Origin: Haloarcula japonica DSM 6131
GTDB lineage: Archaea; Halobacteriota; Halobacteria; Halobacteriales; Haloarculaceae
Length of the DNA stretch: 64,000 nucleotides
Direction of reading: 5' to 3'
Assembly: GCF_000336635.1 (NCBI RefSeq)
Contig: NZ_AOLY01000007.1
Span: 247,413 to 311,412, forward strand
Each line of letters opens with the position of its first letter. Position 1 is the stretch's first letter. The notes beneath the pieces were generated by a model. The model saw only the letters and a program-made list of their open reading frames with translations. It was not told where the DNA came from and made no database searches. Below are positions 4,696 through 8,991 of this stretch, piece by piece. Position numbers and translations under genes: made by a program.

Positions 4696-4713
4696 CGTGT
4701 AATCACGTAGCAG

Positions 4714-4763
4714 TTTAGGCTCGCCAAAACATCGGTGGTCTTAAGTCTTTTAGGCGAACCTAA
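4714..4763 (+). promoter_or_regulatory. Two-box DtxR/Idr-like operator before the cupredoxin lipoprotein gene
   Basis: Two inverted repeats precede the gene at 4772. The upstream one is imperfect, TTTAGGCTCGCCAAA at 4714-4728. The downstream one, TTAGG-CGAA-CCTAA at 4750-4763, has perfect 5-bp arms and ends 8 bases before the ATG. TTAGG/CCTAA arms resemble binding sites of DtxR-family metal-dependent repressors (SirR, Idr1/Idr2 in haloarchaea; family knowledge). A TATA-like TTAAGT at 4741-4746 sits about 28 bases before the ATG, so the downstream box would cover the start of a leaderless transcript. Regulation by iron or manganese is inferred. Confidence 0.55.
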
Positions 4764-4771
4764 TCGTCTGT

Positions 4772-7240
4772 ATGCCACAGAGACGTGACTTGCTGAAGAC
4801 GGTGGGGATCGCTGCGACGGGACTGCTCGCCGGGTGTCCCAGTCAGGGGTCGTCAGAATCGAACACGGCGTCAGTTGATACCGAAGCAGCGACAGACCAG
4901 GTAACGGCTGCGGAAACCGACGATAGCGGCGAAAGCAGCGTCTCGGTCGGACCGATGACCGCTGTCGCGACTGAGTGGAACGTCTACCGGGCGCGGCTGT
5001 ACGATGCTGTCGCGCTGGGCCGGGCCGGCGCACCCGGTGCAGGGGCGAGTGTCGCCCAGAGCGTTTTCGCCCGGTTCGAAGGCGCGTCCGGCGAGTACGG
5101 GGCCCACGAACAGCTTGAGTCTACATCCGAGTCAGCATACGAGGGGTTCGAGGATGCCCTCGGGGCGGTCCAGTCGTCGCTGTCAGAGGGCGACGTGTCC
5201 GGAGCCGCCTCGGCCGCAGACGAGGCGTCGGGCCACCTCCAGACGGCTCAGCAGGCCGCTGCCGGACAGCAGGCCACCAGAGTACTGGACCTGCTCTTGC
5301 TGGGCAGTCGGGCGAGCAACGCCGCGATGGCTGGGTCACTGGGTGCTTACGAGGGGGCCGCCGCCATTGCGGAAGAGACGGTGACCGCGTTCGAGGATGC
5401 GCTGGTGTACAGCCAGATCGAGGAGGCGGACGCGGAGTCATACGAAGCCTTCGAGAACGCACTGGCCGGCATCGGTTCCGCCGCGGGTAACGAAGACACA
5501 AGCGGCGTCACTGAACAGGCCCGTGCCGCGCTCGATGCGACCGTTTCGGGCGCGTATGCGCTGGTTCAGGAAGCGTCGGTCGCCGGCGCGGGCCACCTCG
5601 CGACGATGCAGGCCCGTGGCTGGGATGCGGCCGCGCTCGCGTCCGCCGGCGGTCCCGGACAGGCGTACGCGCACACGGTCACGCTGAACAGCTACCGTGC
5701 TCGCGTCGCCGACGCGGACTGGCTCGCCGCCAACGATGCGACCGATGCAGCCTCGACGGCCGTCGAGAACGTCTTCGCTCACTTCGAGGGAGCGAACGCA
5801 CACGACGCGCTCGAAGAGGCTGACGGCGAAGCCTATGAGGCATTCGAGGGCGGGCTGGAAGACCTCTCCAGCGCTATCGGGAACGGGAACGCGGACGGTA
5901 TCGACAGCGCCACCGAAACGGTCGATACGAACCTCGTCGCTGGTATCGAAGCGTTGGTCGGCGGCGAGGACGCCCGCGCGGCGCTGGAGTCGGCGTTCTT
6001 CCGCGCCCGTATCGCGGACGCCCGCGAACTGTATCGCCTCGGTGACGCCGACAGCGCGGCGACGATTGTCTCGGACGTGTTCGCCCGCTTCGAGGAGAAC
6101 GAACTCGGCTTCCACGAGACGATGGAACACGAGAGCGAGGACCTCTACCACCGCTTCGAGGAGGAGCACCTCACCTCACTACAGTCGGCCTACGAGAACA
6201 ACGACAGCGAGGCCGTGGCGACCCACCACGACGGAGTCCAGCAGGCTCTGCTCGACTTTGAGGCGGCCCTGTCGACGGCCGTCGCCAGTGGTGCAGAAGC
6301 CGACTACATGATCGGCCGGGCCTTCGACGCGGCCGGGCTCGCGGCGCTGTCGGAGACCGACCGCGCGGCGACCGTCATTCAGGACACCTTTGCTCACTTC
6401 GAGAGCGGCGCGGCGGGCTTCCACGAGGCGCTGGAAGAGGCCGACGAGGAAACCTATGAGAGCTTCGAATCGACGCTTACGGACGTTCGCTCCGCGGCTG
6501 AAGACGGTGGGGACGTCACTGCTGCGGCGACGGCATTCAACGACGAGGCTATTGCGGCGGCGTACGCCATCGCCGGGAGCGCCGGCGGTAACGGGGAGGC
6601 TGCGGCGGCTATCGTGCAGGATGTTTTCGCGACCTTCGAGGAGGCTCGGGTCCACGAGATGCTGGAGGAAGCGGACCACGACGCCTACGAGAACTTCGAG
6701 GCTGCGCTGAGCGACTATTCGAAAGGGCTGACGAACGGCGACGGCAATCCGACAGTGCTTGCGGATGCCACCCGAACTGGACAGTTTGCCGTCGTCGGTG
6801 CTGTCGACAGCGCCCCGAGCGGATCCAGAGGCCACAGCAGCGAGGAGTCCGAAGACACCGAGTCGTCACTGTCCGGCGGCCCGAACGTCGTCGAGGGCGT
6901 TCCCGAGGACGCCGACCACGTCGTCGACATGGAGGCGGTGGCGTTCGCGCCCGAGGAACTCACGGTCAGCGTTGGTGACACAGTCGCCTGGAAACACGTC
7001 GGCGGCGAAGCGCACTCGGTCACCGCTATCGAAGAAGACCTCCCAGAGGACGCGACCTACTGGGCATCCGGTGGGTTCGAAAGCGAGTCGGCTGCACGCG
7101 AAGGGTGGGAGAACGGCGAGGGAGCCGTTCAGTCCGGCCAGAGTTACGTTCACACGTTCGAAGCGGCCGGCGAACACGCTTACGTCTGTATTCCGCACGA
7201 GGCCGCGGGGATGGCTGGCACCGTCGTCGTCGAGGAGTAA
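4772..7240 (+). CDS. Exported lipoprotein with six helical repeats and a C-terminal blue-copper (halocyanin-like) domain (DUF5059-like)
   Basis: An 822-residue surface protein. It starts with a twin-arginine-type lipoprotein signal (QRRDLLK, hydrophobic stretch, lipobox LAGC), so it is probably Tat-exported and lipid-anchored. The middle 650 residues hold about six related units, each with a segment like VFARFE or VFAHFE followed by an EEAD..YE.FE helix. The last 106 residues form a cupredoxin fold with copper ligands His near 748 (GEAHS), Cys 806 and His 809 (VCIPHE) and Met 814 (AGMAG). This suggests an electron-transfer or metal-handling role outside the cell. The upstream DtxR-like boxes point to metal-responsive expression. 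The repeat function is unknown; I believe the repeats match DUF5059 but could not search. Confidence 0.85.
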   Translation: MPQRRDLLKTVGIAATGLLAGCPSQGSSESNTASVDTEAATDQVTAAETDDSGESSVSVGPMTAVATEWNVYRARLYDAVALGRAGAPGAGASVAQSVFARFEGASGEYGAHEQLESTSESAYEGFEDALGAVQSSLSEGDVSGAASAADEASGHLQTAQQAAAGQQATRVLDLLLLGSRASNAAMAGSLGAYEGAAAIAEETVTAFEDALVYSQIEEADAESYEAFENALAGIGSAAGNEDTSGVTEQARAALDATVSGAYALVQEASVAGAGHLATMQARGWDAAALASAGGPGQAYAHTVTLNSYRARVADADWLAANDATDAASTAVENVFAHFEGANAHDALEEADGEAYEAFEGGLEDLSSAIGNGNADGIDSATETVDTNLVAGIEALVGGEDARAALESAFFRARIADARELYRLGDADSAATIVSDVFARFEENELGFHETMEHESEDLYHRFEEEHLTSLQSAYENNDSEAVATHHDGVQQALLDFEAALSTAVASGAEADYMIGRAFDAAGLAALSETDRAATVIQDTFAHFESGAAGFHEALEEADEETYESFESTLTDVRSAAEDGGDVTAAATAFNDEAIAAAYAIAGSAGGNGEAAAAIVQDVFATFEEARVHEMLEEADHDAYENFEAALSDYSKGLTNGDGNPTVLADATRTGQFAVVGAVDSAPSGSRGHSSEESEDTESSLSGGPNVVEGVPEDADHVVDMEAVAFAPEELTVSVGDTVAWKHVGGEAHSVTAIEEDLPEDATYWASGGFESESAAREGWENGEGAVQSGQSYVHTFEAAGEHAYVCIPHEAAGMAGTVVVEE

Positions 7241-7253
7241 CTGACGCTTTATT

Positions 7254-7304
7254 TTTTGGCTCGCCTAGAAACCGATGGCTTTTTGTGTTTTAGGGTAGCC
7301 TAAA
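7254..7304 (+). promoter_or_regulatory. Second copy of the two-box DtxR/Idr-like operator
   Basis: The pair is laid out exactly as before the gene at 4772: an imperfect repeat around GGCTCGCC at 7258-7265, and a perfect inverted repeat TTTAGG-GTAG-CCTAAA at 7289-7304. From GGCTCGCC to the following ATG is 54 bases in both places, and the CCTAA arm ends 8 bases before the ATG in both. Aligned without gaps over 59 bases, I count 42 identities. This is a duplicated promoter, now followed only by a very short ORF. Confidence 0.6.
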
Positions 7305-7311
7305 CAATTGT

Positions 7312-7428
7312 ATGCCGGACGAACAGGCCACACCGAGGCGGGACATCTGTCGCCGTAGCGAGTCGGGTACTGCCGTCCCTGTCGTCCGCGCAAACGCCGC
7401 CCGACAGGAGGTGAGAGTTCGGACGTGA
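7312..7428 (+). CDS. 38-codon ORF behind the duplicated operator; possibly the stump of a decayed Tat-signal gene
   Basis: The ORF begins at the ATG placed correctly relative to the duplicated promoter. Its N-terminus, MPDEQATPRRDICRR, looks like the start of a haloarchaeal twin-arginine signal of an iron-transport or redox lipoprotein (TPRRD pattern), but no hydrophobic segment or lipobox follows and the frame stops at 7428. I read it as either a truncated gene remnant or a small metal-regulated peptide. From 7429 to 7635, before the convergent permease stop, I see no recognisable coding sequence. Confidence 0.3.
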   Translation: MPDEQATPRRDICRRSESGTAVPVVRANAARQEVRVRT

Positions 7429-7635
7429 GCGTGTACTGACCTGTCAGTCTCGACCATCTTTCGCGGCGACGACCACCGTGGGCATAGCCCGTCGCCGCAT
7501 GCCACGAGTTTTTCGTGTCTGTCCCGTGGGCGTCTCGCCCCAAGGACGCCCCATTTCAGGTCCTTTGCTGTGGACCACACCGGAGCCGCCAATTCCTGCC
7601 AGCTACCGGTGTCCGGAACGTACGAGGACGGGACC

Positions 7636-8991
7636 TCAGTCCGAGTCGACCGACTCGGGGACGGTGGCTTCGATTCGAGCGACTTCGCGTTCCAGATACT
7701 CCCGCTCGAAGTACAGCACTTCGACTGCGATGACAGCACACGCGATAACCACGACCATGTAGAAGGTCCCGGGCTCGCGCGTCCAGAGGTTCTGTAGCAT
7801 CAACGGAAAGAACCCTAGTGCCCCGACCGCGCCGACGGCCGGTGGGACGGGGTGTACGGCGTCGCTGTCACGTTGCCTGAGCGCGAGGGCGCTCATCGCG
7901 CCGAAGATGATAATAAACGACAGCGAAGCGAAGGAAGTGATAGCGTTGAGGCTGCCGACCGCTGCGAAGGCCGCCGTGACGGCTCCGATGAGAACGACCG
8001 TCCGCTCGGGCACGCCGTCGGCCTCCGCGTCGCCGATGTGGTCTGGCAGGAGATCGTCGGTCAGCATCCCTTTCGCGAAGTGTGCCGCGGAGAACAGCGT
8101 GGCGTTGATGGCGCTACCGGTCGAGAACAGCGCCGACATCGACAGCAGCGCCGCCCCGAGCGACGCCAGGCCGTAGGGGGACAGCATCGTCGCCGCCGCA
8201 TCCTTCAGCGCGACGTGGGGAGTACTCGTCAGCGCGTCCGGTACGAGAGTGACGGTGACGATCCCGACCAGAACGTAGACGGCGACCGCAACCGGAATCG
8301 AGATGTACACCGCTTTCCGGATAGTTTCGGCCGGATCCTCGATACTTTCCTGATCGTAGAACAGCAACTGCCAGCCCTGAAACGCCACGAACGATATCGC
8401 TGCTGCGACAATCGGGTCGGCGCTCGTGAGCCGATCAAGGCCGAGGTCTACCGGTGTGGCGCTGAACCCGTACGCGTACACCAGCCCCAGGATACCGAAG
8501 GCGACCAGAATCGATAGCTTCAGCGCAACCAGCACGTTCTCGACCGCGCCCGTCGAGCCCGCACCGAGCAGATTCAGCCCGACGAACGCGGCGACTGCCA
8601 GCACGGAAACGACCGGCCGCATCGGCAGGCCCACGACGCCGTCGGGGAGGCCGAGCGCGATAGCGAACTCCGCGAACGCGAAGGCGTACATCGCCATCGA
8701 GCCGATGTAGCCGAACAGCAGCGTCCAACCGACCATGCCGGCGAGTGTGGTATTCCCGAGGTGACACTGCACGAACGACACCGAGCCGCCGTGGGCGTCA
8801 CGGAGCGAGTTGAGTGCGTTGTACGAGTACCCCGCACAGAGCGCGACGACGCCGGCTAGCACGAACGCCGCCCACGTCGCCGCCATCGTTATTTGCGCGA
8901 CGACGCCCAGCACGGCGTAGATGCCGCCGCCGATCATGCCGCCGAGCGCTATCGACACCGCCGCCGCGAGTCCGAGATCACTCTCGCCCAT
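7636..8991 (-). CDS. APC-superfamily amino acid permease
   Basis: Integral membrane transporter of 451 residues with about 12 hydrophobic segments. The N-terminal helix has the glycine-rich APC signature GGMIGGGIYAVLG right after MGESDLGLAAAVSIAL. I chose the ATG at 8991 because it places this first helix at the usual distance; the longer frame to 9108 adds a basic, non-conserved extension that runs up to the divergent endonuclease gene. Substrate cannot be told from sequence; amino acids or polyamines are likely. The gene ends facing the short ORF at 7312. Nothing in the context points to a pathway. Confidence 0.88.
   Translation of the reverse strand: MGESDLGLAAAVSIALGGMIGGGIYAVLGVVAQITMAATWAAFVLAGVVALCAGYSYNALNSLRDAHGGSVSFVQCHLGNTTLAGMVGWTLLFGYIGSMAMYAFAFAEFAIALGLPDGVVGLPMRPVVSVLAVAAFVGLNLLGAGSTGAVENVLVALKLSILVAFGILGLVYAYGFSATPVDLGLDRLTSADPIVAAAISFVAFQGWQLLFYDQESIEDPAETIRKAVYISIPVAVAVYVLVGIVTVTLVPDALTSTPHVALKDAAATMLSPYGLASLGAALLSMSALFSTGSAINATLFSAAHFAKGMLTDDLLPDHIGDAEADGVPERTVVLIGAVTAAFAAVGSLNAITSFASLSFIIIFGAMSALALRQRDSDAVHPVPPAVGAVGALGFFPLMLQNLWTREPGTFYMVVVIACAVIAVEVLYFEREYLEREVARIEATVPESVDSD

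Follow-up and report, generated by a model that had tools for sequence, protein, structure and literature searches.

A conserved and covarying, probably non-coding RNA behind an iron-regulon operator of Haloarcula: a candidate archaeal iron-sparing regulator

Bacteria have repeatedly evolved small RNAs that ration scarce iron. Among them RyhB, PrrF, FsrA and IsrR are iron-repressed and lineage-restricted, and their genes share neither sequence nor synteny (PMC9410917). In Mycobacterium tuberculosis the small RNA MrsI (ncRv11846) has an IdeR site in its promoter and is expressed on iron starvation (PMC8628891; PMC9410917). The nearest archaeal cases concern zinc transport and nitrogen: s479 of Haloferax volcanii is a haloarchaeal sRNA of metal homeostasis that acts on zinc transporter mRNAs (PMC8155600), and sRNA154 of Methanosarcina mazei acts on nitrogen-metabolism mRNAs (PMC5867862). 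As for the regulators, the DtxR-family proteins Idr, SirR and TroR are described as controlling iron homeostasis in Halobacterium and Haloferax (PMC11349517). No archaeal sRNA governed by the operator of an iron regulator came up in a literature search of incomplete coverage.

The locus considered here lies in a stretch of 64,000 nucleotides from Haloarcula japonica DSM 6131, analysed at its full length and called the window below. A sequence-only reading of this DNA had pointed to two two-box operators of the same order and spacing, ahead of positions 4772 and 7312, and the positions bear this out: from the start of GGCTCGCC to the ATG there are exactly 54 bases in both (4718 to 4772; 7258 to 7312), and in both the CCTAA arm ends 8 bases ahead of the ATG. 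Both operators consist of two TTAGG-N4-CCTAA-type boxes set 35 bp apart (spans 4715-4763 and 7255-7303), and each pair flanks a likely TATA element. The features concerned are as follows.

4715..4728, + strand: upstream box of the first operator, TTAGGCTCGCCAAA, one mismatch to TTAGG-N4-CCTAA, conserved in orthologs
4750..4763, + strand: downstream box of the first operator, TTAGGCGAACCTAA, an exact palindrome (the genome has 19 such sites), located 8 bp ahead of the start codon of the DUF5059-cupredoxin gene
4772..7240, + strand: gene of a lipoprotein with DUF5059 (PF16502, E 1.6e-270) and plastocyanin/azurin (PF00127, E 2e-14) domains, the putatively co-regulated neighbour
7255..7268, + strand: upstream box of the second operator, TTTGGCTCGCCTAG, two mismatches to TTAGG-N4-CCTAA
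7280..7287, + strand: likely TATA element TTTTTGTG, flanked by the two boxes and lying 25-32 bp ahead of the ATG, assigned from position and conservation in the alignment
7290..7303, + strand: downstream box of the second operator, TTAGGGTAGCCTAA, an exact palindrome, as is present ahead of the RNA described below at 31 of 31 loci
7312..7428, + strand: ORF of 38 codons inside that RNA, present but probably not the product that is conserved

The likeness of the two operators had been put at 42 of 59 bases; an ungapped recount gives 40 of 59. Elsewhere in the window, the next-best match to the first operator (34/59) was with itself, as the reverse complement at 4707, followed by one of 31/59. 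The upstream box of the second operator is better matched, at equal distance, in many relatives and is degenerate or missing in four copies. The two promoters had been regarded as a duplication. Their shared layout stands, but duplication is unproven, as paired boxes 36-37 bp apart are also found at other operators in this and other haloarchaeal genomes. Moreover, since many further haloarchaeal genera have the operator ahead of their DUF5059-cupredoxin gene too, no local duplication is needed to account for the likeness.

The first operator had been assigned to a cupredoxin lipoprotein gene, and a plastocyanin/azurin domain is indeed found at the C-terminus of the 4772-7240 product. An iron operator stands upstream of the DUF5059-cupredoxin gene in the window and in most of the other haloarchaeal genera examined (loci L118-L137), suggesting that the unnamed DUF5059 domain may have a widespread iron-related function. 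The locus is syntenic, with a SAM hydroxide adenosyltransferase gene upstream and, downstream, an amino-acid permease gene that is convergent in the window and several relatives. About half of the genomes have the DUF5059 gene between the adenosyltransferase gene and the RNA. In one relative (G030, contig C11, locus L046) the DUF5059 gene is deleted, a remnant of a TTTAGGCCCGC box being joined directly to its last ~25 codons, and the operator of the RNA and the RNA itself follow intact.

To what regulon do these operators belong? The source genome contains 19 exact TTAGG-N4-CCTAA sites, versus one for a reversed-pattern control. Nine of the 19 precede Fe/siderophore-type binding lipoproteins, eight of them of the Peripla_BP_2 class and one of SBP_bac_6/8, classes that bind siderophores and ferric iron, and the same genome has two genes with the DtxR-family C-terminal domain (PF02742). 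Since the palindrome is thus common to iron-uptake genes and the genome encodes DtxR-family regulators, the second operator can be assigned to the iron regulon, whose boxes DtxR-family proteins would bind. The idea of a metal regulator, put forward in the sequence-only reading, therefore gains from the regulon content and from the two DtxR-family genes; both products that it proposed behind the second operator, a lost gene and a peptide, fare badly, as discussed below. A further iron operator was seen at G000:C35:111242-111410 of the source genome (locus L066, 1501-1672), 8 bp ahead of a 49-aa acidic ORF (MPSQTDDVEVSED...) which adjoins a convergent Dps-like gene. This peptide has no Pfam match and recurs throughout the order, in 55 of 60 genomes; it is a genuine conserved small protein, probably iron-regulated.

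The second operator heads a proposed, previously undescribed small structured RNA of ~215-290 nt that is probably non-coding. The sequence after the operator is conserved in orthologs throughout the genus (among the named relatives are Haloarcula sebkhae, argentinensis, vallismortis, amylolytica, mannanilytica and pellucida), and in the window's own clade the conservation extends over ~280 nt, well beyond the stop of the 38-codon ORF. The 5′ end of the proposed RNA was placed from the position of the TATA element and its 3′ end from the loss of conservation (~7590), while the core common to all copies ends at 7525. Its parts are these.

7308..7590, + strand: proposed RNA, its DNA conserved beyond the ORF in orthologs; both ends approximate
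7316..7388, + strand: 5′ helix of CGGACGAACAGG (7316-7327) with CCTGTCGTCCG (7378-7388), predicted with high probability in the window copy
7407..7413, + strand: GGAGGTG motif, Shine-Dalgarno-like and complementary to the 16S 3′ end
7461..7526, + strand: RNA core, made up of a helix (7463-7471/7490-7498), the CACGAG hairpin (7503-7517) and the TCTGTCCC tail (7518-7525)
7528..7576, + strand: two extra hairpins, GGGCGTC/GACGCCC (7528-7551) and GGTCC/GGACC (7559-7576), seen when the window sequence is folded and also kept in the close clade

The distribution of the RNA follows the genus closely. A hairpin pattern derived from its most constant part, CACGAG-N3..9-TCGTGTCTGTCCC, has a single occurrence in every one of 26 Haloarcula genomes within a 392-genome sample of the order; the sole genome of another genus with a match in this sample, G093, has neither the operator nor the helix at that place. 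With a covariance model of the core (E<=1e-6), a single copy was found in 31 of 32 Haloarcula genomes, among them all 28 of good quality, and the only genome in which the core is missing is 71% complete; the window copy is matched by covariance model R1 at E 2.1e-8. An exact operator palindrome is situated 160-305 nt upstream of the core hairpin at all 31 loci. Outside Haloarcula, the genome search with the core model gave nothing better than E 0.02 and no credible copy, and the four loci fetched from among these weak matches (E 0.02-0.1) all lack the operator. A search of Rfam 15 with positions 7200-7700 assigned no family (best 12.9 bits, E 7.8, for a gathering threshold of 35). A scan for terminators and bacterial-type promoters, which is uninformative for archaea, found nothing.

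The core helix (GCGGCGACG/(C)GTCGCCGC) encloses a short hairpin with a GGGC loop, in many lineages of the sequence ACCGT-GGGC-ACGGT. Most lineages, though not the window's clade, have a further hairpin of variable sequence inside the helix. Then follow the CACGAG/CTCGTG hairpin and the invariant TCTGTCCC, often with a T-rich stretch after it. Covariation was weak in a first alignment with three helices (A4) and is clear in alignment A5, to which five more divergent copies and the third hairpin of the branch were added. Over the 19 distinct sequences of A5, pairing is kept in 90.8% of cells; double-sided changes affect 6 pairs and 11 cells, versus 1.9 and 2.2 in shuffles (none of 500 reached the observed values), and when partners were slid at most 4 pairs and 6 cells with such changes were obtained. 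The covariation of the core is therefore above both controls. Folded alone, the window RNA is not more stable than its shuffles (z -0.70), so the case for structure rests on the comparison of copies. Several other lineages, though not all, are likewise predicted to form the 5′ helix around the ATG, its partners having changed, and the two extra hairpins at 7528-7576 could form the 3′ end of the RNA. The nearly invariant GGGC loop (GGGCA, 7480-7483) could also pair with TGTCC of the invariant tail (7520-7524) in a possible pseudoknot, which is beyond the reach of covariation because both sides hardly vary.

Taking operator, regulon and RNA together, the second operator is likely to govern a small regulatory RNA of the Haloarcula iron regulon that is structured, probably non-coding and repressed by iron, and that would spare iron in trans. 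Its transcription and the direction of its regulation are inferred: with iron present, a DtxR-family repressor would sit on both boxes flanking the TATA element and silence the RNA, and when iron runs short it would be produced alongside the siderophore-type binding proteins and the DUF5059-cupredoxin lipoprotein. It would then act in trans as a riboregulator that pairs with mRNAs and so restrains non-essential use of iron; its part in iron sparing is likewise a proposal, as are its targets. A duplex-energy search of the RNA against 13 Fe-S gene starts (one of them counted twice) and 47 control frames, a crude procedure that leaves accessibility aside and works from uncertain start sites, showed no difference (-48.7 vs -49.5 kcal/mol).

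The lack of a target signal in this search would also agree with an iron-regulated RNA whose partner is a protein or the ribosome instead of the mRNAs of iron proteins, acting either as a sponge or by engaging the 30S subunit through GGAGGUG. The motif GGRGGTG, complementary to the 16S 3′ end, is kept in 31 of 31 RNA copies (as GGGGGTG in three of them) and lies ~40-117 nt after the operator in every one, and the invariant TCTGTCCC tail and the nearly invariant GGGC loop would suit a protein or ribosome as well. However, several copies have GGAGGUG in a predicted base-paired state, and this mode of action is considered unlikely, if the strongest of the competing explanations. No start codon stands at a constant distance after the motif in the 31 copies.

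Somewhat less probable still is translation from a leaderless ATG, with a small iron-regulated peptide as the product or as the second output of a dual-function RNA. Of the 31 copies, 30 retain the ATG at 8 bp from the operator, most ORFs are 36-42 codons long, with differing stop codons, and in the close clade in-frame pN/pS is 0.63 versus 1.1 and 1.25 in the other frames; for these reasons a dual-function RNA keeps some probability. The ORF at 7312-7428 is real, as had been noted, but the metal-regulated peptide read into it is recognisable at its own locus in only 15 of the 31 genomes bearing the RNA and is not detectable by protein search in the other 16. In the sister copies L034 and L045 an indel of one base shifts the frame and removes the stop, and in G015 (L111) no ATG follows the operator, with operator, GGAGGTG and core all intact. 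The translations are mostly basic and Arg-rich, and the 22 variable columns are spread over codon positions as 9/5/8. The 49-aa protein of the same regulon, with its 55 of 60 genomes, shows by contrast what a conserved small protein looks like here. A core in 31 of 32 genomes, a peptide in 15 and covarying helices are instead the marks of a stand-alone RNA.

It is very improbable that the second operator is left over from a decayed gene, that is, from a co-regulated protein gene of which only promoter and stump survive. The short ORF, next to an operator that drives a long gene, had invited such a view, and comparison of strains for an intact gene after 7312 had been suggested; the relatives examined have no intact protein gene there, the region after the operator is conserved and covarying, and the gene that does disappear, in G030, is the DUF5059 gene, the RNA being retained. 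The case also shows that what looks like the promoter of a mere gene stump may conceal a conserved RNA. Finally, a structured RNA behind a promoter might be the 5′ leader or riboswitch of a downstream gene, a reading that is rejected almost outright since the downstream amino-acid permease gene is convergent in the window and several relatives.

How does the proposed iron-sparing RNA compare with the systems already described? To MrsI it is akin in that the promoter of this sRNA has a site for IdeR, an iron regulator of the DtxR type, and the Haloarcula operator is of the DtxR type too; MrsI differs in being bacterial, about 100 nt long and having known targets. With RyhB, PrrF, FsrA and IsrR it would share the class of iron-sparing sRNAs and a restricted lineage, and confinement to one genus is as expected, since the bacterial iron-sparing sRNAs share neither sequence nor synteny; these four, however, are bacterial, Fur-controlled and have known targets, whereas the Haloarcula operator is of the DtxR type. 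Like s479 it would be a haloarchaeal sRNA of metal homeostasis, but s479 is encoded beside CRISPR-Cas and has a crRNA-like handle, and the portions of the source used here report no metal-regulator operator for it (PMC8155600). Like sRNA154 it is archaeal, putatively nutrient-related, conserved within its genus and folded into a structure, but sRNA154 is under another regulator and serves nitrogen-metabolism mRNAs (PMC5867862). The defined promoter and core structure, the single-copy conservation throughout the genus and the availability of cultured hosts make an archaeal iron-rationing RNA directly testable, and the candidate may be the archaeal counterpart of the bacterial iron-saving small RNAs. 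That this sRNA, present throughout Haloarcula, is the first regulatory RNA of archaea to spare iron, held down by an iron-dependent repressor of the DtxR family, reprogramming the use of iron in trans and evolved independently of RyhB, MrsI and IsrR, is a claim for which the balance stands about level.
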